This document shows positions 24,652 through 39,548 of a stretch of DNA of 64,000 bases, in pieces (the stretch's first letter is position 1; each line of letters starts with the position of its first letter). The DNA is from Vicingaceae bacterium (GTDB lineage Bacteria > Bacteroidota > Bacteroidia > Flavobacteriales_E > Vicingaceae), in NCBI GenBank assembly GCA_018402765.1, contig JAGYIE010000001.1:806001-870000 (forward strand), in the 5' to 3' direction. Below the pieces are notes generated by a model. That model was not told the DNA's origin. It searched no databases and saw only the letters and a program-made list of their open reading frames with translations. The translations under genes were made by a program, and so were the position numbers.

Positions 24652-27516
24652 TTAAAATGGTAAATCATCATCGTCATCATTATCATATTCAATATCAGGT
24701 TGCTCGGGAATATCGAATCCGCCTGCAGCATTTAATTCGGGGCCTAATATTTCGCTGATTGTTTCTGAATCTAAACGCTGTGTATATACCTTGGCACTTT
24801 CATAACCTTTTTCGAGTAAATAATTCAGGAATTGATTGGCATAAGCCTCCAGGAGGGGCTCTGATGTGTATGGGTTATTGCAAACAAAACCTTCGCAATC
24901 CTGCTGAAATTCAACAGAGGAAACATGCATCTTAAAGTAAAATTGATACCCCTGAGAATCATTTTCATGATGCTTAAACAAAGCAATTGATAAATAGGAT
25001 AACAAAGGCCGCTGCCAATCTACCTCAACCTCAAATGATTGCTTTTCTTTAAAGAAATCATCGTTTTTGTAATTTGTAAGAAACTTTGTGACAACATTAT
25101 TGGGTTCATCACATAAGTAGAAAATATTTAAACTAGCCGGACTGAATTCTTTATCCTTGAAAAAGTACGAATCAGATTTGATCATTTCTTTGTACATTTT
25201 GAAGGTTATATCAAATGTTTTGGAAATATCGCTTATGCTGCCTAAAACGCTTTTAAGTTGGTTTTGAATATTTTGCTGTAATTCTTCTTCCGTTTTTGGC
25301 ACAAGAAGCATCAAACAAAGTGAGTTCCAAGCGTCATTTTCTCCAAATACCAATTCAAGAAGAGCTACATTTTCTTGTTGATTTTCATGAAATTGTGCCG
25401 ATAATGCTTGCCAAAACGCTCCCTTTTTGGCGTTGTCCTCTTGTAATGGGTCAGTAGTTAAAGCGTGGGTTTTTAGTGTGTTTGTATCTTTATTGTATTG
25501 CCAAAGTGCCCATGATTGATCCATTCTTTGCAAATAACCTTTATTTTCATCAACCAAACGAAAATCACGACATCCAATTCCGTCTATTAAAGTGCCTTTT
25601 TCATCCAAGACATCAAAAGCTTGATTTCCAAAGGGCGATAAAACAGAAAAATATTGAAAATCCTCTAAATTAAAATAGGAAAGATACTGCATCGGTAGCT
25701 TGAAGTTGCCATATTCATCCTTGATGTTTACCAAAGAGGTTTTTTTTATTGATGCATCGAGAGTTTCCAAGGCATACTTTCTTAATTCATTATCACTTAA
25801 CTCGGTCAATCGAAGGCCTTGCAATTCTGATTTTCCGCCCCGAAATGTCGAATTATTGATATATTGACGCAGCATTTTTGCATCATTTATTTCACTCCAA
25901 GAACACTTAGTTTTGGTTGGTGATGAATAGTTTATATCTGAATTCGGCACAAAATACTCCATGCCATAGGCTTTATATAATTCTGGAAATGCCCCCAAAT
26001 GACGAACAACTTGTGGAACAGCATCCATGGGAATTAAATTATTTACAGCAAGCTCATAAAATAAATCAGTAAATAAATCGGGATATTTCATTACCATATC
26101 AGCTAAAGCTTTAGAGCATATTTTTTCACCATCTCTATACCCATATTGAAATTCCGAAAGAAGCTTAATAAAATCCTGAAGTTCAGTGATTCGTTTTTTT
26201 ATAGAATGATTGTTTGGGTCAAAATAGGCAAACGTATAATACCAAGATAAATAATAATTGACCTGTCTTTTAGGAAATATATTTAACCCCTGAACTAACT
26301 GGCTATATTGATAATAAAAATCCTCAAAAGGCAAATCACTTGCGAACAAGACTTCTAATTTAGCATTTACATCAAGCTCCTCTGGGCTGAGTTTATCGAC
26401 AAAAGGCAATAAATTTTCAGCCATTTCTATTAAGCCCTGTGAATCATAGCGGCGCTTTTCGTAGTCATCATCATGTCGACTACCGCCAAATGGATCTGCA
26501 TAGTCTTCCTCACACTCGAAATAATATTCTAAGGATTGAAGTGAAACACCTGTACGTTTTAAATGAGGATAAACACTATATAAGGCTCCTATTTTTCTTT
26601 TATCATTCAAGCCCATATATTGCAAAAATGTTAAAAGACGCATCGGCAGTGTTTTATTATGCTGTGTAGCGTTGTCCCAAATAACAAAGTAACGCTCTTT
26701 AGATTGCTCAAAAGTAAAACTACAAATAGGATTTAACACTAAAGTAGATTTATTGCTATTTGACATATTGCTTGCTAAGTGCCACATGTAGTGTGGGTCA
26801 CTTTTAAGTTTTGGTGAAATATATTGTCCGGCATCAAGATTTTGATTTAAAGCAGCTAGTATAATTTCAAAGTTTTTTGTTAGATCTTTTGATGCGTAAT
26901 TTAATGCAGCCCCCTGTTTCTTCACTACTTCAAGAATAAAACGGTAGTCATTTTTCAATTTTGATGATGCAAACTGCAAATTTCTAACATCAGATTTTAT
27001 AACTTCTAAAATAATAGTCGGATCACTACGCAACTCTTCTGATGCAGCTTTTAGAGACCACGCTTGATTTCTCATCGCAGCTAAAACGATATCCTTATTG
27101 TTTTTTAGTCTTTCAGACGCAAAATTCAAGGCTATACCCGCAGCTTTTACAGCTTTCATAATAATTTCATAGTCATCACATAACTCATTAGATATGAATT
27201 GAAGTCCAAGAATGTTTCCACTTTCAAGCGAAGCTAAAATAAAGCCTCTATCGTTTTTAAGGTGTTCAGAGACATATTGCATGTCTCGACCATCCTTTTT
27301 AACGGCAGCTAATGCAATTTCTCTATCCCTAAGGAAGTTATCTGTCAATAATTCCAAAGAACAGGCCTGCATACTTATAGCTTTTAAAACAAAATATCTA
27401 TCGTTTCGAAGTTCATTTGAGAGATTTTCAAATTTTTGTTGGCCACTTTTGAGTAGCTGGAATGCAGTTTCTTTAGAGTATTTCTTAAATCGCATAATTA
27501 TGTTTAAAAAATTCAA
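24652..27516 (-). CDS. DUF4116-repeat protein with large C-terminal domain and SSB-like tail
   Basis: A 954-aa cytoplasmic protein. Residues about 15-250 are eight or nine helical DUF4116 repeats of about 24 residues (pattern LKNDRGFILASL..GLQFIS). Residues about 265-954 are homologous to the whole of the next protein in the operon (27522-29507): compare RLLTFLQYMGLNDKRKIGAL with DLLTFLQYWGIDNKEKVSLL. Both end in strings of Asp followed by LPF (here DDDDDLPF), the form of the C-terminal tip by which single-stranded DNA-binding protein SSB recruits partners. No enzymatic motif is visible. The stop is 2 nt before the LprI-like gene, and the upstream gene ends 5 nt away. Confidence 0.78.
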   Translation of the reverse strand: MNFLNIIMRFKKYSKETAFQLLKSGQQKFENLSNELRNDRYFVLKAISMQACSLELLTDNFLRDREIALAAVKKDGRDMQYVSEHLKNDRGFILASLESGNILGLQFISNELCDDYEIIMKAVKAAGIALNFASERLKNNKDIVLAAMRNQAWSLKAASEELRSDPTIILEVIKSDVRNLQFASSKLKNDYRFILEVVKKQGAALNYASKDLTKNFEIILAALNQNLDAGQYISPKLKSDPHYMWHLASNMSNSNKSTLVLNPICSFTFEQSKERYFVIWDNATQHNKTLPMRLLTFLQYMGLNDKRKIGALYSVYPHLKRTGVSLQSLEYYFECEEDYADPFGGSRHDDDYEKRRYDSQGLIEMAENLLPFVDKLSPEELDVNAKLEVLFASDLPFEDFYYQYSQLVQGLNIFPKRQVNYYLSWYYTFAYFDPNNHSIKKRITELQDFIKLLSEFQYGYRDGEKICSKALADMVMKYPDLFTDLFYELAVNNLIPMDAVPQVVRHLGAFPELYKAYGMEYFVPNSDINYSSPTKTKCSWSEINDAKMLRQYINNSTFRGGKSELQGLRLTELSDNELRKYALETLDASIKKTSLVNIKDEYGNFKLPMQYLSYFNLEDFQYFSVLSPFGNQAFDVLDEKGTLIDGIGCRDFRLVDENKGYLQRMDQSWALWQYNKDTNTLKTHALTTDPLQEDNAKKGAFWQALSAQFHENQQENVALLELVFGENDAWNSLCLMLLVPKTEEELQQNIQNQLKSVLGSISDISKTFDITFKMYKEMIKSDSYFFKDKEFSPASLNIFYLCDEPNNVVTKFLTNYKNDDFFKEKQSFEVEVDWQRPLLSYLSIALFKHHENDSQGYQFYFKMHVSSVEFQQDCEGFVCNNPYTSEPLLEAYANQFLNYLLEKGYESAKVYTQRLDSETISEILGPELNAAGGFDIPEQPDIEYDNDDDDDLPF

Positions 27517-27521
27517 TTAAA

Positions 27522-29507
27522 CTAAAAAGGTAAATCATCATCATCCGCATCGTTATCTCGCTCGGGGATATCAAAGCGACCTTCTGCATTTAACTCAATG
27601 CCTATAAGTTCGCGGATTGAATCTCGCCCTACAAATTGAGTATAGGCATTCACTTGTTTGTAGTTTTTATCTAGCAAATAGCTTAAAAATTCATTCCCGT
27701 ATGCTTCCAAATCACCTTTAGTAGCAAATGGGTTTCTCTTAATGAACGCCTCACAGTCTTGCTGAAAAACTTCTGCCGCGGCATTCATTTGAAAATGGAA
27801 TTGATTAGATAAAGTATAATGTCCGCGCCACTGGGATAGACCCAAAGTAAAATGTGAACTTATCGGACGTTCTCTATATAGTTCATAATTTAATTCTCTT
27901 GAAAAGTCGTCATTTTGGTAATGCTTTCTATAACCTATTTTTAATTCCTTTGTCAAACCATCATGTAGAACAAAATAATTTAAGCTTGGAGTACTAAACC
28001 CAATTTGCTCGTTTGAATTAAGCAGCTCCTTATAAAGTTCAAAAGCCGCCTCATAAGTATCCAAAAGGTTTACTCCACTATTTCGGAGACTAATCAAAGC
28101 CCTTACAATAGCATTTCTTATACCGTCTTCTGTTGAGTGATTCAACATAGTCAAATATAGAGAATACATATCGTCTGCTGTTCCAAACTCCAGTTCGAGA
28201 ATTTCGTATGTGTCAAGTTGATTAATCTTTTGATTTTCGATAATCGACCGCTGAAAACGCTCTTCTTCTTGTTCCCAAACACCTTCTTCATAGGGATTAT
28301 CAATAGCAACATCGTGCTTGACAATATCTTGGGTTTCTTCATCAAAAAACCAACGCACCCATCGCAAGCTATCGGCATTTTGCAAGTAGGCAATGTTCTC
28401 AGATAAGAAATAAAAATCATAATAACCGCCATCGTCAATAACCTTTCCACACTTTGTAACGATATGGTAGGATTGATAACCAAATGGAGCTAAAAAATGA
28501 AATCGGTTTTGCGGGTTTATAACATAATCACTGGCATACATCATTGGCAAAAGATAATTACCATTCCTGTCTTTAAAATTAACTATTTGTGCATTATAAC
28601 AATCGTTCTCTTGAAGCAAGTCTTTTAATTCCGCTTTAGAAAGTGATACAATGTCAATTCCTTTTAAAGGATTACAATCAGCATAAAATGTATATAAATT
28701 AAAAAATTGCCTTAAATGGCGAATATCATCTACTTTTTCGCACAAAGGTTCACTTTGGTCATACAAATTATAATCTATAACGGTATTGGGAAGATACGTT
28801 TCCATACCCAGCTGAATAAATAGTTCTTGAATGGCTTCATCATTTCTTAAAGCATGAGGTATGGCATCTATAGCCATTAAATTGCGTTTTCCCAATTCAA
28901 GAAAACAAGCAGCCATCAGCTTAGGAAAGCGAGAGAACAGACGTTCTTCCAAGCAAGAAAATACATTGTTTAACTTGCAATTCAAGTCATCTTGACTAAT
29001 ACCATTTTGTTGGGCCAGATTGGATAAAATCTGATGAAAATTATGGTCTGTATAATTTAAAATATCCCATGCGCGTCTCCAAGAAAGGTAAAAGTTCGCG
29101 GGCCGTTTAGGTGCAGGATTGAGCCCTTCAATCAGTTGTTTATATGCTGAATAGAATTCAATAAAGGGCAAATCCTCCGTAAACAAATTCTCCAATTGAT
29201 GAATCACTTCCTTTTCTTGCTCTGAAGGTGTATCCGCATCAAGTTCTATATACTCATAACAAAGTTGTTTGATGTATTCGGGTAAACTATTAAATGAAGA
29301 ATCCTTTAGTGAAGTCCCTGTTTCTAGTAATTGGGGATAGATAGAATACAGTAAACTTACTTTTTCTTTATTATCAATACCCCAGTATTGCAAAAAAGTT
29401 AGTAAGTCCATTGGCACTGTTTTCGGTAGCCCCGAAACGGTATCTAATATGAAAAAGTAACTGTTTTTACTTTGCTTATCTTGAAATGTGAAAATTGGAT
29501 TTGCCAT
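27522..29507 (-). CDS. Paralogue of the DUF4116-repeat protein without the repeats, SSB-like tail
   Basis: A 661-aa cytoplasmic protein corresponding to the C-terminal two thirds of the 954-aa neighbour, with shared motifs along the whole length: LTFLQYWGIDNKEKVSLLYS near the start, RPANFYLSWRRAWDIL, RHLRQFFNLYTF, GNYLLPMMYASDY, and close to the end ELIGIELNAEGRFDIPE followed by the acidic DDDDLPF tip. No nuclease, ATPase or membrane motif is recognised. It is encoded 5 nt upstream of the 954-aa gene and arose by duplication. The tip resembles SSB-Ct and could dock on SSB-interacting proteins. Confidence 0.75.
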   Translation of the reverse strand: MANPIFTFQDKQSKNSYFFILDTVSGLPKTVPMDLLTFLQYWGIDNKEKVSLLYSIYPQLLETGTSLKDSSFNSLPEYIKQLCYEYIELDADTPSEQEKEVIHQLENLFTEDLPFIEFYSAYKQLIEGLNPAPKRPANFYLSWRRAWDILNYTDHNFHQILSNLAQQNGISQDDLNCKLNNVFSCLEERLFSRFPKLMAACFLELGKRNLMAIDAIPHALRNDEAIQELFIQLGMETYLPNTVIDYNLYDQSEPLCEKVDDIRHLRQFFNLYTFYADCNPLKGIDIVSLSKAELKDLLQENDCYNAQIVNFKDRNGNYLLPMMYASDYVINPQNRFHFLAPFGYQSYHIVTKCGKVIDDGGYYDFYFLSENIAYLQNADSLRWVRWFFDEETQDIVKHDVAIDNPYEEGVWEQEEERFQRSIIENQKINQLDTYEILELEFGTADDMYSLYLTMLNHSTEDGIRNAIVRALISLRNSGVNLLDTYEAAFELYKELLNSNEQIGFSTPSLNYFVLHDGLTKELKIGYRKHYQNDDFSRELNYELYRERPISSHFTLGLSQWRGHYTLSNQFHFQMNAAAEVFQQDCEAFIKRNPFATKGDLEAYGNEFLSYLLDKNYKQVNAYTQFVGRDSIRELIGIELNAEGRFDIPERDNDADDDDLPF

Positions 29508-29546: not shown

Positions 29547-30452
29547 TTATTCAAAATTTGCTTCATTGTTTACACTGTATAATTCTTGAAAATCACCTCT
29601 ATTCAAATGATAAAAGCTTATACGTTCTAAAGATTGAGGCAATACTCCTTGCAACCCGGCTATCACCTCTTGATAATTACCATTCAACCAAGGACAAAGC
29701 CCCAAATGTTTGATTTGATGCTGCTCACAGTATATTAATACTTCATCAAAGGTCTTGCCTTTTAGGTTGAATACTTTGGATTTTGACTCAAAGAAATCGC
29801 TAATGGACTGGCTGTTATAGGCAGCATCTCCGGCAAGCGTTGATGGATTATATGATAGGCCTATAGCGTCTAAACTTACCTCATCATCCCAAATACTTCC
29901 GTGAATAATGTTTAGCTCAACTCTTTGATTAATAATAGAAATATTTCGAGTTTGGGTAATTCTTTTCATCATATAAACATGTCCATAGCTGCCTGAATTG
30001 TGTTTTTGACTTTCAGTAAAAATTTTGGGATCGACAAACCCAGAATCGCCATCTTTTAATTCTTTAACTCTGTAAAAGCCCCAATCAACATTTTTATACC
30101 AATCTCGTTCCCAAAATTCATAATGAGAAAAATCACAGATCAATATAAATTCATCCTTTAAGATCGGACTTAAATACCCCATCACTTCATCTGAAAGTAT
30201 TGCGTAACCACCTCCCCCCTCGAGCAATCCCTCATTTAACAAGACTAAATAATCTATTTTTATGCCGCGCAATTTTAGCTCATCAATAGCTACTAATGCA
30301 TCCTTTTCTATCCATTCTGCATTTGAAGGGATGTTCTCATAAGAACTAGTATATTTCAAATCATTTTTCTCCACAAAAAAGAGTTTATCAAATGGAAGTT
30401 TGGAATATGCATCAAGGTATGGGCCTGCCGCGAGGTATAAGAGCGTTTTCAT
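29547..30452 (-). CDS. Rossmann-like (methyltransferase-like) protein, paralogue B
   Basis: I place the start at ATG 30452 (MKTLLYLAAGPYLDAY), because the paralogue upstream begins the same way and an earlier start would overlap that gene. The 301-aa product has an N-terminal Rossmann-like half (LLYLAAGPY, then KLFFVEKNDLKYT, IDYLVLLNEGLLEGGGGYAI) that resembles a methyltransferase core but lacks a convincing GxGxG. Its C-terminal half (VELNIIHGSIWDDEVSLDAI, then a helical FDEVLIYCEQH, then ERISFYHLNRGDFQELY) has the order of strands of a macrodomain, though without the canonical binding loop. No function can be assigned. It starts 2 nt after paralogue A. Confidence 0.65.
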   Translation of the reverse strand: MKTLLYLAAGPYLDAYSKLPFDKLFFVEKNDLKYTSSYENIPSNAEWIEKDALVAIDELKLRGIKIDYLVLLNEGLLEGGGGYAILSDEVMGYLSPILKDEFILICDFSHYEFWERDWYKNVDWGFYRVKELKDGDSGFVDPKIFTESQKHNSGSYGHVYMMKRITQTRNISIINQRVELNIIHGSIWDDEVSLDAIGLSYNPSTLAGDAAYNSQSISDFFESKSKVFNLKGKTFDEVLIYCEQHQIKHLGLCPWLNGNYQEVIAGLQGVLPQSLERISFYHLNRGDFQELYSVNNEANFE

Positions 30453-30454
30453 AA

Positions 30455-31609
30455 TCAATTGTTTAATTGCATTGCCATTTGAAGTAAACCTTGAATAACT
30501 TCGTTTTTGGTTCTTGATTGAACACAAAGTTCATCAGAATCCATTTTGATTATCGAAAAACTAAATTCTTCATCAGTACTTAAAGCTTGAGTAATCTCTT
30601 CACAAAGTTTTAGTATTAAAGAACCGTACCCTCTCTTTATTAATGTAAGATATTGATTTTCACTTACATCACTTTGTATAATATTTGAGAAATAATTAGG
30701 GCATGTTTCGATAATACGATTTGCGTAGCTCCTATAAATTCCTTCAAAATCATTCTTTTTTAAGTGATAAAATCGCACCTCTTTTACCTGTGTGCCTTTA
30801 TGTTTTTCTAATAAAGTAAGCACCTCGTCATAATCATTTTCACTCCAAGGTGTGAATCCTATAATTTCAGCACTGTTTGATTCGGCATCAGCCAATACCT
30901 CCTCAAAAGATTTGTTTTGTATATTGTGAACATAGGGTTTCGATGCAAAAAATTCACCAGAAGTTCGAATGTTTCTTTTTCCTCGGCTATGTAAATGCAC
31001 CCCATCATTTGACAACTTTAAGCCAATGTAGTCTAAATCGTCTGTATCACTCCAAATGCTACCGTGAATAAGTTTTACTATAATTCGATTGTTTCTAGTG
31101 TTAAAAACTGTTTTAGAATCAACTTTTCGCATTCTAAAGACTTGCCCAAACCGCTCTTTATTTGACGTATGCGTAGAAAAGATACGCGGATTGAGATAGT
31201 CTTTATCCCCGAGGAAAAGTTCTTCTACTTTTTCTACTGCCCAATCTAATTTAGACAATGCCTTATACTTTGTCGTTTGATACGGAGTTAAATCAGTAAT
31301 AAGGGAAAACTCATCTGTTAGCAAAGGATAAAGATAACCCATTAAAAAATCAGCAAACATCGGATAACTTCCTCCTCCTTCAAATAACCCTTCGTTAATG
31401 ATCACTAGACAATCAACTCGTACATTTTCTGCTTTGAGATGATCAATAGCCAATAAAGCGTCTTTGGCAATAAATCGAATAGAGTTCGAATTTTCAGGAT
31501 AACTTTTTCTTAAGCCTATATTGGAATCTACAAAATACATCTTATTGAAATTCAGCTTCTCATAATTTATATTGTAAGATCCCGAAGCAAGATATAAGAA
31601 AGTGTGCAT
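30455..31609 (-). CDS. Rossmann-like (methyltransferase-like) protein, paralogue A
   Basis: A 384-aa protein, start chosen at ATG 31609 (MHTFLYLASGSYNINYEKLN) because it matches the start of paralogue B. It shares the Rossmann-like N-terminus (KMYFVDSNIGL, VDCLVIINEGLFEGGGSYPM) and the IHGSIWSDTDDLDYIGLKLS segment, FEEVLADAESNSAEI and EVRFYHLKKNDFEGIY of the C-terminal half, then adds about 80 residues not found in paralogue B (from about RIIETCPNYFSNI). It is the first gene of the operon 31609-24152. Identity with paralogue B looks like 30-35% by eye. Function unknown. Confidence 0.65.
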   Translation of the reverse strand: MHTFLYLASGSYNINYEKLNFNKMYFVDSNIGLRKSYPENSNSIRFIAKDALLAIDHLKAENVRVDCLVIINEGLFEGGGSYPMFADFLMGYLYPLLTDEFSLITDLTPYQTTKYKALSKLDWAVEKVEELFLGDKDYLNPRIFSTHTSNKERFGQVFRMRKVDSKTVFNTRNNRIIVKLIHGSIWSDTDDLDYIGLKLSNDGVHLHSRGKRNIRTSGEFFASKPYVHNIQNKSFEEVLADAESNSAEIIGFTPWSENDYDEVLTLLEKHKGTQVKEVRFYHLKKNDFEGIYRSYANRIIETCPNYFSNIIQSDVSENQYLTLIKRGYGSLILKLCEEITQALSTDEEFSFSIIKMDSDELCVQSRTKNEVIQGLLQMAMQLNN

Positions 31610-31761
31610 AAAAGGTATTTGTTTATTTAACGAGTGAAATACATAATGTTCCCACATTTACGCGTTACAGATGGCCACTCAAAAAAATATCAGCCTCAAA
31701 AAAATACTCAATTCGTTCAAAATCGATGTTAATTCAATCTATATATTACTTTTTAAATAGC

Positions 31762-31769
31762 TATATTTG
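31762..31769 (+). promoter_or_regulatory. -7 promoter box of the sigma factor gene
   Basis: TATATTTG fits TAnnTTTG and lies 22 nt before the TTG start at 31792. No -33 TTTG at the usual spacing was seen. Confidence 0.5.
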
Positions 31770-31791: not shown

Positions 31792-32340
31792 TTGCCTGAA
31801 ATAAAAAAAAATAATCTCATTCGCTTTTGCAACGGAGACAACGAAGCCATTGTGAAGACTTACAAAAAGTGGGTTCCAGAATTATACTTTATTGCCTATA
31901 AATATCTCAGAAACAAAGAAGATGCCGAAGACATTGTAAGCGATTCATTTGAGAAATTACTTCAAATGCCTTTAGCTAAACGTAAAAAGAAATTTATAGA
32001 AGAAGAAATAAATTTAAAAGCACTCTTAATTTTGGTAGTTAAAAATAAAGCTCTCGACAAAGTTAAAGTCAAGAACAATCGACTAAGAATAATGGAGTCT
32101 ATACGTCATATAATGCCAACAGTAACTAGCAATTTGGTATGGAATAACATATCCAACGACCTAATTGAATCTTTAGTTAACTTTTTACCTGAAAAAGACC
32201 AAAAAATATTAAAAATGAACATGGAAGGTTATAATAGAGAAGAAATTGGGAAAGCATTTAACCTATCATTGAAGTCAGTAAGCAATTCGTTGTCCTACTC
32301 AAGAAAAAAGCTGAAGACTATACTAGATGATTTTAATTAA
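31792..32340 (+). CDS. ECF-type RNA polymerase sigma factor
   Basis: A 182-aa protein starting at TTG 31792. Region 2 is represented by AYKYLRNKEDAEDIVSDSFE (about residues 34-53), and region 4 by the helix-turn-helix FLPEKDQKILKMNMEGYNRE with IGKAFNLSLKSVSNSLSYSR (about 130-175). There is no room for region 3, as in ECF factors. It is followed by a membrane TPR gene and faces a CHAT protease gene. The downstream membrane protein is the probable anti-sigma factor. Confidence 0.85.
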   Translation: MPEIKKNNLIRFCNGDNEAIVKTYKKWVPELYFIAYKYLRNKEDAEDIVSDSFEKLLQMPLAKRKKKFIEEEINLKALLILVVKNKALDKVKVKNNRLRIMESIRHIMPTVTSNLVWNNISNDLIESLVNFLPEKDQKILKMNMEGYNREEIGKAFNLSLKSVSNSLSYSRKKLKTILDDFN

Positions 32341-32379
32341 CCTTGGGAATTTATTCGTTTACAATCGTTTTTATATTAA

Positions 32380-33132
32380 TTGGAAAATAAAAAATTACAT
32401 ATAACCTCTTTAAATGCTCTGCTGAATGCTGCGCAAAACATAACCTCAGAAGCGGAAAGAACTTTACTGATCGAAAGTTTGAAGCAGCTGAATACCACCG
32501 ATGATGCATTAGAGGGTGCAATATTGTTTTTAGAAGATCATAACTGGAATATAGAGTTACTTCATACTTCTACAGAACATATAACCACTGTTATTGATAG
32601 AAAGAAAACTAAAAAGCGTGCAGATAGTTTAGGAAAAATTGTCCTTAAATATGCTGCTATTTTTATGCTCCCGTTAAGTTTACTATTCAGTTATTATTAC
32701 CTTAACAAACCCTCAGCAATAGAAAAATGGTTTATTGAAGAGCCTGGATTACCCAATTACATGGCGGATAGAGGAATTAACAAATGGGAAGAACCAATGC
32801 AAGCCTACAGAGAAGGTAATTATGCTAAATGTATAGAACAAATAAATGCGTTGCCTATTGATATAAATAACGATACTATTCTTTATTTCGGAGCTGTTAG
32901 TCATTACAAAATGGGAGAGTTTGATCGCTCCTTGGTTTTATTCAAAAAACTAAGGAAAATGCCTAAAAGTGTATTTTATCAAGATGCCGAGTTTAGAATT
33001 GGATTTACTTTATATCAGTTAGATCAATTAAGAGATAGTGAGGCTTCTTTTAGAAAAATAGCCTCTAATAAAAATCATTCTTTCAACACAGAGGCCAGCC
33101 TCATTTTAGAAAATTTATTCGATAATAAATAA
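32380..33132 (+). CDS. Single-pass membrane protein with TPR-like periplasmic part; candidate anti-sigma factor
   Basis: A 250-aa protein starting at TTG 32380, 39 nt after the sigma factor. Residues 1-85 are soluble and should be cytoplasmic, residues 89-110 form one transmembrane helix (ILKYAAIFMLPLSLLFSYYY region), and the rest holds TPR-type helices (YREGNYAKCIEQINAL, YKMGEFDRSLVLFKKL, YQLDQLRDSEASFRKI) predicted outside. Position and topology are those of an anti-sigma factor, but no FecR or zinc-anti-sigma motif is seen. Its 3' end overlaps the convergent CHAT gene by 32 nt. Confidence 0.72.
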   Translation: MENKKLHITSLNALLNAAQNITSEAERTLLIESLKQLNTTDDALEGAILFLEDHNWNIELLHTSTEHITTVIDRKKTKKRADSLGKIVLKYAAIFMLPLSLLFSYYYLNKPSAIEKWFIEEPGLPNYMADRGINKWEEPMQAYREGNYAKCIEQINALPIDINNDTILYFGAVSHYKMGEFDRSLVLFKKLRKMPKSVFYQDAEFRIGFTLYQLDQLRDSEASFRKIASNKNHSFNTEASLILENLFDNK

Positions 33133-35779
33133 CGAATAACACTAAAACTGACATACCTAAAATAACTACCATACGAGTTGATACATCCACCTCATCACTT
33201 TTGTAAGCCATCACTATAGATTGATTATCTCCCATTATATTCATACCTGCCCAATAAATTGGATTGGCATAGCGAGGTACACAGGTTGATAAATAATTTA
33301 GTTTTGAAAGACGCAAGGCTTCACTTTTATTATTATTCCTAGATAAATGAGTAAAGAAATCGTCTAATATCCTTAGAGAGGCACTTTCGTCTAACTCCCA
33401 ATTGCTGTATAAGATACTATTAACTCCAATAGCGCTAAATGCTCTAAGCAAATTTACATTACCCTCTCCTCTATCAATGTAACCAAGACCTGTTTGGCAT
33501 GCGTTTAACACTAAGAATTTGGTAGCTGATTTTAGCGAATAGATCTCTTCCATAGTCAAAAAACCATCCTGCAAGTAAATGCCTTTATCCTTTCCGCTCA
33601 TCGCTTTGTTGGAACTTCCATGAGAAAGCAAAGTCACCACCTCTGCTTCTAAAAGAGACTTTTTAAACATACTAACTGTTGCTTGATCTCCTGAATACAA
33701 TTGAGCATTTTGCTTTACAGCCATATCAGCAGCTAACTTTGAAGCAATGGTTAAGCTAGATTTATCATCTTTAAATACAGGACTAAAAATGCTGTTATTG
33801 CTAGAGGAATTGGCTATTTTACTTGAGTTAAATGAATTTATAGAAGATGAAAGCGAATAACTAAATGAGTATTTATTAACCAAGTAAGGAAGTTTTCGAA
33901 AGTCTGAAGTAGCAGAAACGCTAGAAATAAGCAAATCAAATGGAAGGTTTGCAATATCAGGAAAAGCAATAATTTCAAGTTCGTTTACCTCATCAGGTAA
34001 TCGATTTAAAAGAGGTTCAAACAGAAGCCTGTAAGCTAAATAAGAGTTAGCTTTAAATAGCGCTATGTCGGAATTTTTAAGGGTTTGAAAAATCGTATCA
34101 ACTAAGCTACTGTAATTAACTTCCTCTGTAAGTTCAGAAAGGTTGAATAAAAAAACATCCTCACTAGTGATCAATTTGCAGTACAGCTGATTACTCCCTA
34201 TACCTATATAATTGTAGCTAACAATAGCCTGATTTTTTTCCAAGGAAGATTTAAGTTTCTTTAAAGAAGGGATATGTTTATCTCCTGATGATGAATAACC
34301 ATCTCTGAATTCTTCGTATGCGCTAATCTTCAAATTAATGGTATCGCTCAATAACGAAATATCATTTGAATGGATTTCCCTTTCCAAGTAGTACTCGTCT
34401 AGTAACGTATAGATTTCATTTCTTAATACCCTCAATTCTATACGTTTATTTTTTTGTTCTGAAGAATTTGACCTACTGATTAATAGAGACGCATATTTTG
34501 ACTTTTCTTCGTATTTATGCAATTCCTCCAAGTAAATGGGATCTTTAGTTTTATCAAATAAATCAGCATAATATTCATAAATATACTGGTAGGGATTTTG
34601 ATTGTACATATTTGAGATAAAGTCATCAATATCTTGAACTTGCTCTAATTGATAACCTTCCCATAGTTTTTCATACAGAAGAAGTGCATCAAGGTATTCT
34701 GCATCCAATTTGTCATCACGTATTTCCTTTCTCAAGTTTGATATAATCATTGCCTTGAACCGAAGACTTGTCATCACTCTATAGTTATTTGCTACAAACC
34801 CTTGAGAAACAAATTCGTTAACCGCATACGTGCGCAAAGACTTCTCGTTTACACTAAGCGATTTCTTTAAATCATTATTTGCATAAAATAACATACCCTG
34901 CAAATCATAATATCGAGGCAAATAATCATGATGAGCTCCAACTAATTTATTTAAAATCGATATTCCTTTTTCATAGTCAATTTGACAATTTCTAATTAAA
35001 CCATTTTGCTCCTTTAGACTAAATTTACTTTCGGGATTACTTAATGTATTATACGCATGGTCAAACTTAATACTCGTATACCCTATAATTAATCTTGCTT
35101 TCTTTACACTTCCCTTTAAAAATCGATCATTCACTAAAACCTCTAGCGTGTCAAAATAATTTTTACGAATAGAGTCATTGATATCATAATTTCTTATAGA
35201 GAAACAATGACTTTCATAGAAAATATAACTATCTACTAAATAAGAACTTGATTTATTATTGTGGTATATTTCTAAGGCTTTTAAGGAATAATTGTACGCA
35301 TTATCGATATCATACTTTACATTACAATACTTTGAGAGATAAGCATAATAAATGGCTGTATAAATTTGCTCATTAGAATCATAAAGTAAATAATACTTGT
35401 GAAACTTTTTAATCTGTATTAAAAAGTCATCTAGTAAAAACAAGAAATAATAATTATCAGCGAGCAGTTGATGGGTTTTGGCATAAATAAGATAGTCCGT
35501 TGAAGATTGATTATCCAAATGATCAACAATACCTAATAATAGTTGGATAGCTAATCGATGAGTGCCTAAATCAGTGTATACATCAGCTAATTCTAAACTA
35601 GCAGTATAATATTCCTTTAAATGCGTTTCACTGTTCGAAATTACTATTTTATAACTCCGAATTGCACTTGAAAAATCTGAATTGTCCCTAAATTCCCTGG
35701 CTACATCTAGGTGTTTAGAGGCAATAAGATTAGAAAAGAGAAAAATACATACGATTGTTAACCAAAACTTCACATCCAA
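33101..35779 (-). CDS. TPR-CHAT caspase-like protease, exported and membrane anchored
   Basis: An 892-aa protein. The N-terminus is a signal sequence (residues 5-20), residues about 25-440 are TPR-like helices, and residues about 580-850 are a CHAT domain with the catalytic His in SHGSSN (H720) and Cys in LVLNACQTG (C761). RGEGNVNLLRAFSAIGVNSI and IYWAGMNIMGD are further CHAT hallmarks. A C-terminal helix (866-886, MVVILGMSVLVLFVIYY) should anchor it. If exported, the protease faces the periplasm. It converges on the sigma and membrane-TPR genes. CHAT proteins are peptidases related to caspase and separase; the catalytic dyad here is intact. Confidence 0.88.
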   Translation of the reverse strand: MDVKFWLTIVCIFLFSNLIASKHLDVAREFRDNSDFSSAIRSYKIVISNSETHLKEYYTASLELADVYTDLGTHRLAIQLLLGIVDHLDNQSSTDYLIYAKTHQLLADNYYFLFLLDDFLIQIKKFHKYYLLYDSNEQIYTAIYYAYLSKYCNVKYDIDNAYNYSLKALEIYHNNKSSSYLVDSYIFYESHCFSIRNYDINDSIRKNYFDTLEVLVNDRFLKGSVKKARLIIGYTSIKFDHAYNTLSNPESKFSLKEQNGLIRNCQIDYEKGISILNKLVGAHHDYLPRYYDLQGMLFYANNDLKKSLSVNEKSLRTYAVNEFVSQGFVANNYRVMTSLRFKAMIISNLRKEIRDDKLDAEYLDALLLYEKLWEGYQLEQVQDIDDFISNMYNQNPYQYIYEYYADLFDKTKDPIYLEELHKYEEKSKYASLLISRSNSSEQKNKRIELRVLRNEIYTLLDEYYLEREIHSNDISLLSDTINLKISAYEEFRDGYSSSGDKHIPSLKKLKSSLEKNQAIVSYNYIGIGSNQLYCKLITSEDVFLFNLSELTEEVNYSSLVDTIFQTLKNSDIALFKANSYLAYRLLFEPLLNRLPDEVNELEIIAFPDIANLPFDLLISSVSATSDFRKLPYLVNKYSFSYSLSSSINSFNSSKIANSSSNNSIFSPVFKDDKSSLTIASKLAADMAVKQNAQLYSGDQATVSMFKKSLLEAEVVTLLSHGSSNKAMSGKDKGIYLQDGFLTMEEIYSLKSATKFLVLNACQTGLGYIDRGEGNVNLLRAFSAIGVNSILYSNWELDESASLRILDDFFTHLSRNNNKSEALRLSKLNYLSTCVPRYANPIYWAGMNIMGDNQSIVMAYKSDEVDVSTRMVVILGMSVLVLFVIYYRINFLK

Positions 35780-36392: not shown

Positions 36393-39300
36393 TTAACCAA
36401 CTCTCAACTTTGCTGCATCTTTCCACAAATAATGAGGCATTGATTCATTTAATTCCCATTCAATACTCATTGGTTTGGAACCATAATAATTACTAATTGA
36501 GCCTTCACCAACAAACACATAGCCCATAGTGTTCCCAAACTCATCATTAGCTTTTTCTCTGACAAAAAGTAGAATCTTTTTGTTCTTTTGTTTGTGGGTA
36601 ATATATGATTTTCCCTTAGGAGTTTCCGGTCCGGCAGAATTTTGACTTTGCCAATGAAAAAAGCGTTCATTAACAGCATAGTCGTCATACATTGTAGTTG
36701 GCGAAAAGCCCTCTTCTGATTTTACCAAATTAATGAATAGTAACTCAGTATTGAGCCTTAAATTTTCAGCAACGCCCTCTCTATTGGATGACTTCTTTGC
36801 AAAACTACTCAAGCCAAACGCTGATAAGATTTGATCTCTTGTGTAGCGCGCGTGTAACTTTAAAGGTTGATTAAATGGCAAATCAATTTCAATTTCTTTA
36901 AAATTAATTTGATCAATCAAGATCTCCATAATTTCAATGATTTCCTCAACCAACACTTTATTTTTTCCAATTTGATTGATTGAATCTTCTAGAGATTTAA
37001 AACCACCTGCCGTTTGCCAAACATCATAGTGAAGCATAAGTGCCATAGATTGATCAACTTCTGATAAATCATCAATTCTAATTTGAAAATCTTGCATAGC
37101 GAGTTTTAAAACAAAACTAAAATAGCTTATTGATGCTGTAGAGAGCCATTTATTTTTTATTGCAGATAATATCTGATTCTCATTTTCAATTTGAAAATCA
37201 TCAATAATTTTTGCCATTTGACATAAGCGCTTCCAACCGAAACTTCTATTTTTCTTGTAAACCAGTTGCAATGGGATGTCATAGAACTCAATGAAATTTC
37301 TCAAATTCAAGGGCAAAGTCGTTTGGTTTTGAAAAGATTGAACTTTCTGAATAAGTTGATTTTGGTTTAATGAAGTTGCTGCAATGATATTGCTGAGTAT
37401 TACGTCTTTTGCCTTTTTTTCCAAAACAATAGAACAGCCGAGAGGTAAATGTGGAAAGTTATCTTCAACCTCTTTCTTCACAGGTGTTGAAGTTTTGCCA
37501 ATTAGGGCTCTGAATTTATTTTCAAAATTATATTCGTGTCTAGCATTGCCAACAAAGTCCAAAACGGTTAAACATTCTTTACCCTCTGCTAATCTTAATC
37601 CTCTTCCTAGTTGCTGTAAGAAAACAGTTAAACTTTCTGTCGGCCTCAAGAAAAGAACTGTATCAATTTCAGGAATATCAACCCCTTCATTAAAAATGTC
37701 GACTACAAACAAAAAATTGATTTCCTTCATCTGAAGTTGATTTCTAACAGCATCTCTATTATGAGTATTTGTGCTAGCTAAATAATCAGCTTTAAAACCA
37801 GCCATTGAGAATTTTTCTGCCATAAATTTTGCGTGTTCAATAGTCACACAAAAACCAAGCGCTCTCACTTCATGGTAATCCTTAGTGTATTTATCAAGTG
37901 CAAAAATTATTTCACCGACACGTCTATCATTACCAGTGTAAACATTACTTAATTCACTCGCTATATATCTACCTCTTTCCCAATGAACTTTGTTCAAATC
38001 AACACTGTCTGAAATTCCAAAATATTGAAATGGACACAACAATTTCCTATTCAATGCCTCGGGCAATCTAATTTCAGCTGCAATTCTTTGATGAAAATCT
38101 TCTTTTATATCACCACCATCCATTCTTTCAGGAGTAGCGGTTAGTCCTAATAAAACCTTAGTATTGAAGTAATTGATAATTCCTCTATATGAAGAAGCTG
38201 TTAAATGGTGACATTCATCAATAATGATGAAATCAAAATACTCCTTAGATAAGTCCAGATTTTCAAGTCTGTTGTTGAGCATTTGAATTGAAGCAAAGAC
38301 ATACTCATAATTTGTAGGCACCATTCTGTCAACCCATAGTTCCCCAAAGTTATTGTCTCTCAAAACTCCTCGAAATGTGAAAAGTGCTTGTTCTAAAATC
38401 TCTTTCCGATGTGCTAAAAAAAGTAGTTTTGCTGATTTATTCTCTTTTCTAAACTTTTTGTAGTCGAATGCAGAAATCACAGTTTTGCCTGTTCCTGTAG
38501 CTGCTACCAAAAGATTTTTATATCTATTGTGAACAGCCCTTTCAACCTCAAGTTTTTCGAGAATCTCATTTTGAAAAGGATAGGGCTTAAGATCAAAAAA
38601 AGCTGCAGGATTCATAGCACCAACTGTTGAGATCTTTCCTTTGTTCAATGATTCTATGAGCTTCTCTTTATGCAAGCTGTCATTAAAGACTTCAAATTCA
38701 TCGCTTTTCCAATATGAGTCAAAAGTTTTCTGAAACTTATCTATGATGTGACTAACTTCTTGATTTGTAATTTTTACATTCCACTCTAAACCATCAGTAA
38801 GTGCTGACCTTGAAAAATTTGATGAGCCAATATAACCGGTATGAAAGCTAGTATTCCGATAAAACAAGTAAGCCTTAGCGTGAAGTCTTTCGTTTCCTGT
38901 ATTGTATGAGATTTTAACTTGAGTATTATCGAGCTTTGAAAGCAATTGTATGGCTTTGTAGTCTGATGCACCCATATAAGTTGTTGTAATGACTCGTAAC
39001 TGACCTCCTTTCTGTGTAAATTCCTTAAGTTCACGCTCCAAAATGATAATCCCTTTGAATTTGATAAACGAAACGAGTAAATCAATTCTATTTGATGAAA
39101 GGATTTCCTTTTTTAGTTCGCTTTCGAGCGAAAGCCCTGTATTACTGCCGCCAGTAAAAAGCTCACTGTGGCTAAGTCTTGTATATGGTGTTACTTCTTT
39201 GAGGTGTAAATCAAAATCTGAAAAATGAGCATCGATTTTTGTAAAAACCGCCTTTAAAATTTCTCCCTTACTCTCAATCAAATCCTTGTCAAAATCATTA

Positions 39301-39548
39301 TCTTTTAATTCTACCTTTAAAAATTGAATGATTTTGTTTGCAATTTCTATTTGATGTTCAACTTGGTGTTCCCCTTTCAATAAATCAAGAGCTCCTTTGA
39401 TTGTTTTTGATAGATAACGCGATATGATAATGGAAGCTTCTTCTTTGTCAATCTTGGACTTGTTGACATAATAAGTATCTTTATTCAGCTCTTTGATCTT
39501 ACTTGAAACTAACTGCGTTACAAGTTCTTCATATATACCTTGATTCAT
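36393..39548 (-). CDS. PLD-nuclease / DEAD-type helicase with DUF3427 end
   Basis: A 1051-aa protein in four parts. An N-terminal helical region (1-125) precedes a phospholipase-D-like nuclease domain (HxK at H223/K225 with GSSNFSRSAL, residues 241-250). A superfamily II helicase core follows: Walker A AATGTGKT (349-356), DECH (444-447), ATPERMDG, and QQLGRGLRLAEGK in motif VI. The DUF3427 end carries TTMYDDYAVNERFFHWQSQN. This architecture is widespread as a single-gene accessory protein, often near restriction or defence genes. It stands alone here, without an adjacent methylase. Confidence 0.85.
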   Translation of the reverse strand: MNQGIYEELVTQLVSSKIKELNKDTYYVNKSKIDKEEASIIISRYLSKTIKGALDLLKGEHQVEHQIEIANKIIQFLKVELKDNDFDKDLIESKGEILKAVFTKIDAHFSDFDLHLKEVTPYTRLSHSELFTGGSNTGLSLESELKKEILSSNRIDLLVSFIKFKGIIILERELKEFTQKGGQLRVITTTYMGASDYKAIQLLSKLDNTQVKISYNTGNERLHAKAYLFYRNTSFHTGYIGSSNFSRSALTDGLEWNVKITNQEVSHIIDKFQKTFDSYWKSDEFEVFNDSLHKEKLIESLNKGKISTVGAMNPAAFFDLKPYPFQNEILEKLEVERAVHNRYKNLLVAATGTGKTVISAFDYKKFRKENKSAKLLFLAHRKEILEQALFTFRGVLRDNNFGELWVDRMVPTNYEYVFASIQMLNNRLENLDLSKEYFDFIIIDECHHLTASSYRGIINYFNTKVLLGLTATPERMDGGDIKEDFHQRIAAEIRLPEALNRKLLCPFQYFGISDSVDLNKVHWERGRYIASELSNVYTGNDRRVGEIIFALDKYTKDYHEVRALGFCVTIEHAKFMAEKFSMAGFKADYLASTNTHNRDAVRNQLQMKEINFLFVVDIFNEGVDIPEIDTVLFLRPTESLTVFLQQLGRGLRLAEGKECLTVLDFVGNARHEYNFENKFRALIGKTSTPVKKEVEDNFPHLPLGCSIVLEKKAKDVILSNIIAATSLNQNQLIQKVQSFQNQTTLPLNLRNFIEFYDIPLQLVYKKNRSFGWKRLCQMAKIIDDFQIENENQILSAIKNKWLSTASISYFSFVLKLAMQDFQIRIDDLSEVDQSMALMLHYDVWQTAGGFKSLEDSINQIGKNKVLVEEIIEIMEILIDQINFKEIEIDLPFNQPLKLHARYTRDQILSAFGLSSFAKKSSNREGVAENLRLNTELLFINLVKSEEGFSPTTMYDDYAVNERFFHWQSQNSAGPETPKGKSYITHKQKNKKILLFVREKANDEFGNTMGYVFVGEGSISNYYGSKPMSIEWELNESMPHYLWKDAAKLRVG

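Follow-up and report, generated by a model that had tools for sequence, protein, structure and literature searches.

A recurring Bacteroidota gene module joining an ECF sigma factor, a candidate membrane anti-sigma factor and a predicted membrane-anchored CHAT protease

What might a protease of the CHAT family, predicted to be exported and anchored in a membrane, be doing beside the gene for an extracytoplasmic function (ECF) sigma factor? The question is raised by a locus in a 64,000-nucleotide stretch of the Vicingaceae bacterium genome (GenBank assembly GCA_018402765.1, contig JAGYIE010000001.1, positions 806,001 to 870,000 of the forward strand), hereafter the window. In this locus an ECF-type sigma gene is followed by a gene for a protein with one transmembrane (TM) helix and a tetratricopeptide repeat (TPR) domain, hereafter the TM-TPR protein, and a TPR-CHAT gene converges on the pair, the 3' ends of the TM-TPR and CHAT genes overlapping in antisense by 32 nucleotides. 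All three open reading frames lie where an initial annotation of the window had placed them. That annotation proposed that the protease could cut the TM-TPR protein, taken to be an anti-sigma factor, on its periplasmic side once the TPR domain has sensed a signal, and so release the sigma factor. We found that the sigma, TM-TPR and CHAT genes are a recurring conserved unit across Bacteroidota and no chance neighbourhood; the proposed cleavage is a plausible hypothesis.

CHAT is frequent in Bacteroidota: of the 395 genomes sampled, 185 encode it. We scanned a first sample of 60 CHAT loci from varied families with home-made profiles, and a sigma gene stood two genes from CHAT at 18 of 118 positions compared to 7 of 360 positions at a distance of four or more (Fisher 4e-7). 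A scan of named genomes with five closer CHATs then gave 80 further loci, which are best matches and no random sample because of the queries used; in most of them the sigma, TM protein and CHAT genes were all there. Modules were found in Flavobacteriaceae, Cyclobacteriaceae, Saprospiraceae, Chitinophagaceae, Spirosomataceae and Bacteroidales. Among the 85 sigma/TM-protein pairs near CHAT that were tabulated, 81 had a clear TM segment, and the CHAT gene was convergent with the pair in 56 of these, codirectional in 16 and divergent in 9. In 84 modules, over which the dyad and topology counts given below were taken, the TM gene followed the sigma gene directly, and the two genes mostly overlapped or were a few nucleotides apart. 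Genomes with a strong match to the TM protein (E < 1e-25) also encoded CHAT in 37 of 40 cases, against the 185 of 395 overall (hypergeometric 2e-10, kinship ignored). Sequence distances were likewise correlated between sigma and TM proteins (r 0.86), sigma and CHAT (0.47) and TM protein and CHAT (0.48), values reached in 0 of 2000 permutations, with shared phylogeny still in the figures. Of the sample's 27 sigma-linked CHATs, 23, including that of the window, grouped in one 35-row part of the CHAT tree, the support being weak and the window branch long. The module proposed in the initial annotation thus emerged from the co-occurrence search as a conserved unit.

The CHAT protein of the window is the product of the single CHAT gene in the whole genome. 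It matched Pfam CHAT (PF12770) at 8.2e-32 over residues 583-851, with 111 bits against a curated cut-off of 24, and gave a TPR match as well. In a structure search its AlphaFold2 model (predicted local distance difference test, pLDDT, 78) matched separase (Z 28, 307 residues, 3.2 Å), Csx29 (Z about 28, with a larger root-mean-square deviation than the separase match), DdvA of Myxococcus xanthus (PDB 8rot; Z 20.6, 549 aligned residues, root-mean-square deviation 7.1) and gingipains R and K (Z about 20). The intact His720/Cys761 dyad described earlier is correctly numbered by its codons, and both residues are invariant in 84/84 module CHATs, which points to an enzymatic use of the protein. Relatives were not found in the viral contigs scanned with the window CHAT.

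Topology was read from composition signals, namely a simple hydropathy scan and flanking charge. The segments that had been taken for a signal peptide and a C-terminal anchor were both recovered in the window CHAT, as a hydrophobic N-terminus and a hydrophobic segment at residues 866-884. A C-terminal hydrophobic anchor was seen in 76 of the 84 module CHATs and a hydrophobic N-terminus in 67; of the 76 anchored proteins, 72 end in a positively charged tail. In 80 of 84 TM proteins the N-terminal side of the helix was the more positive (N-in), and the window TM-TPR protein had a charge of +5 in the 15 residues before the helix and 0 after it. By the positive-inside rule, these signals predict a shared periplasmic location for the body of CHAT and the TM protein's TPR part, as the initial annotation had supposed, and not a cytoplasmic CHAT; they recur in most relatives. 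Four loci (L092, L096, L127 and L188) are variants in which the membrane protein has no TPR part and CHAT has a signal peptide without the C-terminal anchor.

The sigma protein matched Sigma70_r2 (1.6e-7) and Sigma70_r4_2 (6e-6) in Pfam, both above cut-off, and sigma70-ECF in NCBIfam (2.9e-18). We infer that the TM-TPR protein is a membrane anti-sigma factor that would bind it. Its layout is that of an anti-sigma factor: it adjoins the ECF sigma gene, has one TM helix and has its N-terminus, by prediction, inside. Pfam gave a weak TPR match only (0.0015), and the AlphaFold2 model, with a mean pLDDT of 80, was placed by a structure search that covered the TPR part (Table 1). A leave-one-out family profile matched the protein at E 1.9e-12 (search space 10000) over residues 72-246, that is, the helix, the linker and the TPR. 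When 30 relatives were scanned singly against the NCBIfam anti-sigma models, 14 matched NF052375 and 10 matched NF047528, all far below the curated cut-offs; N-terminal fragments of relatives alone also matched anti-sigma models, the best being NF047528 at 3.2e-7, again far below its cut-off. At locus L092 the position of the TM protein is taken by a zinc-finger variant (zf-HC2, 1.9e-4), and a protein beside CHAT at L256 combines an HxxxCxxC motif, a membrane helix, the linker Arg and a TPR domain in one chain.

This linker Arg, Arg131 in the window, is our candidate for the site of CHAT cleavage. TM proteins encoded next to CHAT have Arg or Lys in this column in 67 of 72 cases, and those near a CHAT in 36 of 38 (103/110 together); outside the Arg the linker varies between architectures. 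On the side of the protease, column 798 holds an acidic residue in 84/84 module CHATs (Asp, in the window Glu), and Csx29 has Ser there. The closest fold of the window protease domain is that of the clan CD enzymes separase and gingipains, which cut after Arg or Lys. Cleavage after Arg has been described for separase and gingipain R, and column 798 is near the position of the Asp that contacts the P1-Arg in the separase model (PMC4626109). For the window CHAT, in contrast to these enzymes, the specificity is a prediction and the proposed role is in membrane-anchored signalling.

Among known systems, DdvA (PDB 8rot and 8rw5) is the closest precedent, nearer than Craspase. It belongs to a transmembrane anti-sigma system ("transmembrane anti-sigma factor DdvA" in the title of 8rot), and its TPR-CHAT body, besides matching the fold of the window CHAT, keeps the positions of the His and Cys motifs (LATHG and LAACEGG). 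DdvS, the ECF factor whose anti-sigma factor is DdvA, is active once DdvA is inactivated (PMC4374960). No report of DdvA proteolysis was found in the literature searched. DdvA is one polypeptide, whereas in the window the candidate anti-sigma part and CHAT are encoded by two genes on opposite strands, CHAT being convergent with the sigma/anti-sigma pair. A TPR region and a membrane anchor are present in the TM protein and again in CHAT. The initial annotation did not name DdvA and turned instead to Csx29 and Csx30 of Craspase, the type III-E CRISPR system that likewise combines a TPR-CHAT protease, a sigma inhibitor and an ECF sigma factor (CASP-sigma) in one locus, and in which the protease cuts the inhibitor (PMC10028731). 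Csx29 is indeed a remote homologue of the window CHAT (PDB profile match, E 4e-7). However, the comparison holds as an analogy only, as Csx29 is part of a cytoplasmic complex with an RNA-guided effector (Cas7-11), whereas the window CHAT has a signal peptide and an anchor, and no Cas family was found by Pfam among the eight neighbouring proteins scanned. A further analogy is the RseA/DegS/RseP cascade, which has a membrane anti-sigma factor and a periplasmic first cut like the one proposed here; one M50 protease gene is present in the genome. There the first protease is a serine protease of the DegS type, whereas in the window it would be a caspase-fold cysteine protease encoded by the module itself.

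Taken together, the three genes may act in a single signalling pathway from the envelope to the nucleoid. The TM-TPR protein would use its N-terminal domain to hold the ECF sigma factor at the inner membrane, and the exported CHAT protein, anchored by its C-terminal helix, would present its TPR-CHAT body to the periplasmic TPR of the anti-sigma factor. Upon a signal, CHAT would cut the linker between the membrane helix and the TPR, most likely after Arg131, and the TPR domain would be removed. What remains, a stub with about 25 residues in the periplasm, would then be open to RseP-type intramembrane cleavage, followed by cytosolic degradation and release of the sigma factor. One architecture at least, discussed below, probably has the CHAT operon under the control of the sigma factor as well, which would close a positive feedback loop. 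For this whole pathway, in which CHAT is the periplasmic first protease acting on the anti-sigma factor, with an RseP-like follow-up and feedback in some lineages, we consider the chances to be about even. More tentatively, and with rather more doubt, we suggest a phylum-wide class of ECF systems in which an anchored periplasmic caspase-fold protease serves as the site-1 protease. It would cut the anti-sigma factor of its module at a conserved Arg located between the membrane helix and the TPR domain, as a bacterial parallel, in transmembrane signalling, to the Arg-specific cleavage of separase, and often with positive feedback on the CHAT gene.

Several observations weigh against this pathway. 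The first 71 residues of the window TM-TPR protein were unalignable to the family and gave no match in the anti-sigma model searches; for this reason the anti-sigma function claimed in the initial annotation, although supported by the N-termini of relatives, depends in this genome on family and position. Of 19 TM proteins that have no CHAT in their neighbourhood, 12 keep the linker Arg and 2 more have Lys (14/19 Arg or Lys), one of these being L243, whose genome lacks CHAT. As a divider of CHAT-linked from CHAT-free TM proteins it is therefore weakly supported (103/110 vs. 14/19, Fisher 0.017, the sequences being related), and 4 CHAT-adjacent TM proteins have Met at this column. The conservation could be structural, with the Arg capping the first TPR helix. 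The acidic S1 residue was rejected as a hallmark of module CHATs: it is also found in 93 of 98 other CHATs, and since most of these share it, an acid at column 798 permits Arg specificity and does not prove it. Craspase-type CHAT enzymes, moreover, have no conserved cleavage site (PMC11106740).

A second architecture, which the initial annotation did not foresee, makes CHAT look like a target of the sigma factor. Here the sigma/TM-TPR pair is divergent from an operon of lipoprotein-like, PKD-domain and anchored CHAT genes, followed by a short aspartic-protease-like gene. One genus has this arrangement, as do members of other families, and two copies are present at some loci. Of 13 such loci, nearly all carry a conserved ECF-type promoter (GGTAACA-N16/17-GATATA) that is directed into the lipoprotein/PKD/CHAT operon and not towards the sigma gene, and a genome contains no more than 1-4 occurrences of the pattern. 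Ahead of the CHAT and sigma genes of adjacent-type modules, that of the window included, it was as good as absent (0-3 of 84), and we rejected it as the promoter driving CHAT in convergent modules. The divergent architecture thus supplies a candidate promoter motif and a candidate regulon. Three genomes of the same genus have no CHAT and keep a remnant of the TM protein, with lesions. At L244 the sigma gene and the whole operon are lost; at L245 and L246, whose lesions may stem from one shared event, sigma breaks off after its first 129 residues and runs on into residues 33-241 of the TM protein. A C-terminal remnant of CHAT is retained at L244 and L246. The lesions in these CHAT-less genomes tie sigma and CHAT together functionally, and this fits CHAT as a target as well as a trigger; the divergent promoter and the damaged genes may reflect either a feedback circuit or CHAT as an output of the sigma factor.

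If CHAT were an output, the sigma factor would be released in some other way and would activate the gene or operon for CHAT; CHAT itself would act on other envelope or surface proteins. The rare promoter leading into the divergent CHAT operon argues for this explanation, and lost or shortened sigma genes and damaged anti-sigma genes are what one would expect in CHAT-less genomes if the operon were the sole target. However, the near absence of that promoter from adjacent-type modules, this locus included, speaks against it, and it leaves unexplained both DdvA and why, in the convergent and codirectional orders, a strictly periplasmic, anchored CHAT is encoded next to the anti-sigma gene. We consider it unlikely as the explanation of the module, while noting that it and the cleavage pathway are not exclusive.

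DdvA can also be taken to suggest a CHAT that does not cut at all. Since DdvA carries its TPR-CHAT domain within the anti-sigma polypeptide, and TPR domains occur in both the TM protein and CHAT of the module, CHAT could be a sensory partner, a split DdvA whose TPR region binds that of the anti-sigma factor and relays a ligand or stress signal. The dyad kept in every module CHAT speaks against this and, to us, makes it improbable. Finally, the three genes could be unrelated neighbours. The module is patchy in the lineage of the window: in its family the window protein found a CHAT match in 5 of 46 genomes, and in the two other genomes of its genus it found none. Set against this are 84 modules in many families and three gene orders, the correlated distances and the enrichment over other positions, and we regard a chance neighbourhood as very improbable.

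The features of the locus and of the comparison loci are collected in Table 1. TTG is the first possible start codon in the sigma, TM-TPR and CHAT genes alike, so the exact starts of all three are uncertain. The Bacteroidota housekeeping -7 element is TAnnTTTG, and a sequence that fits it precedes the sigma gene as a possible promoter. Inverted half-sites, GT(T/A)AAC...GTT(T/A)AC with 24-36 nucleotides of spacing, precede the sigma gene within about 75 nucleotides of its start in 17 of 84 modules (L134, L135, L136, L139, L146, L151, L157 and L181 among them), as against 1 of 84 for CHAT; they could belong to an operator or a promoter. Upstream of the sigma gene the minus strand encodes a 954-amino-acid protein with six DUF4116 repeats and an adjoining 661-amino-acid protein that resembles it C-terminally (24652-29507), then two tandem, mutually similar proteins of 326 and 400 amino acids, without Pfam match, in overlapping reading frames (29547-31657). 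Adjoining the CHAT gene on its other side is a 1051-amino-acid PLD-like, helicase and DUF3427 protein (36393-39548, minus strand), a type known from restriction and defence loci.

Table 1. Features of the locus (window coordinates) and of comparison loci (named by locus)
Feature	Coordinates	Strand	Basis
Possible sigma-gene promoter, TATATTTG	31762..31769	+	Consensus match only, to the Bacteroidota housekeeping -7 element
ECF-type sigma factor gene	31792..32340	+	182 amino acids, TTG start; Sigma70_r2, Sigma70_r4_2 and sigma70-ECF profiles
Candidate membrane anti-sigma factor with periplasmic TPR	32380..33132	+	250 amino acids; family profile, AlphaFold2, position 3' of sigma gene
Predicted cytoplasmic N-terminal helical domain (residues 1-83)	32380..32628	+	AlphaFold2, four helices at low confidence; anti-sigma function suggested by relatives
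Predicted TM helix (residues 87-105)	32638..32694	+	Hydropathy, flanking charge; AlphaFold2 helix 84-108
Arg131-Gly132 of juxtamembrane linker, candidate CHAT cleavage site	32770..32775	+	Arg/Lys conservation; AlphaFold2 loop just before first TPR helix
Predicted periplasmic TPR domain (residues 134-247)	32779..33120	+	AlphaFold2 model can be superposed on the TPR domains of YbgF and BamD, Z 14-15
Predicted membrane-anchored TPR-CHAT protease	33101..35779	-	892 amino acids, TTG start; PF12770, AlphaFold2 fold
Predicted C-terminal membrane anchor (residues 866-884)	33128..33184	-	Hydropathy; tail YYRINFLK
CHAT domain (residues 583-851)	33227..34033	-	Pfam range
Predicted catalytic Cys761	33497..33499	-	Codon read in sequence; invariant in 84/84 module CHATs
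Predicted catalytic His720	33620..33622	-	Codon read in sequence; invariant in 84/84 module CHATs
Predicted signal peptide (about residues 1-21)	35717..35779	-	Hydrophobic N-terminus (MDVKFWLTIVCIFLFSNLIA)
Second-architecture loci	L248, L249, L250, L251, L253, L255, L266, L268, L269, L270, L271, L281		
Deletion remnants	L244:7446-8535, L245:7005-7973, L246:6621-7887		CHAT C-terminal fragment beside aspartic-protease-like gene; sigma lost or fused to cut-down anti-sigma gene

The literature that we found on CHAT proteins together with sigma or anti-sigma factors consisted of Craspase and an older paper mentioning DdvA only. Neither a function for membrane-anchored Bacteroidota CHATs nor a description of the split sigma/anti-sigma/CHAT module was found in the literature searched, and the 2021 ECF classification and the 8rot papers were outside that search. 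The module is real and widespread, an apparently undescribed form of CHAT/anti-sigma signalling, and it assigns to the membrane-anchored CHATs of Bacteroidota a compartment and a defined partner, together with a prediction at the level of single residues. If the proposed cleavage is true, a caspase-fold site-1 protease would join the known routes by which ECF sigma factors are released, and DdvA and Craspase would be two ends of one theme. For the bacteria that carry it, the gene set hints at an undescribed route by which signals from outside may reach the genes.

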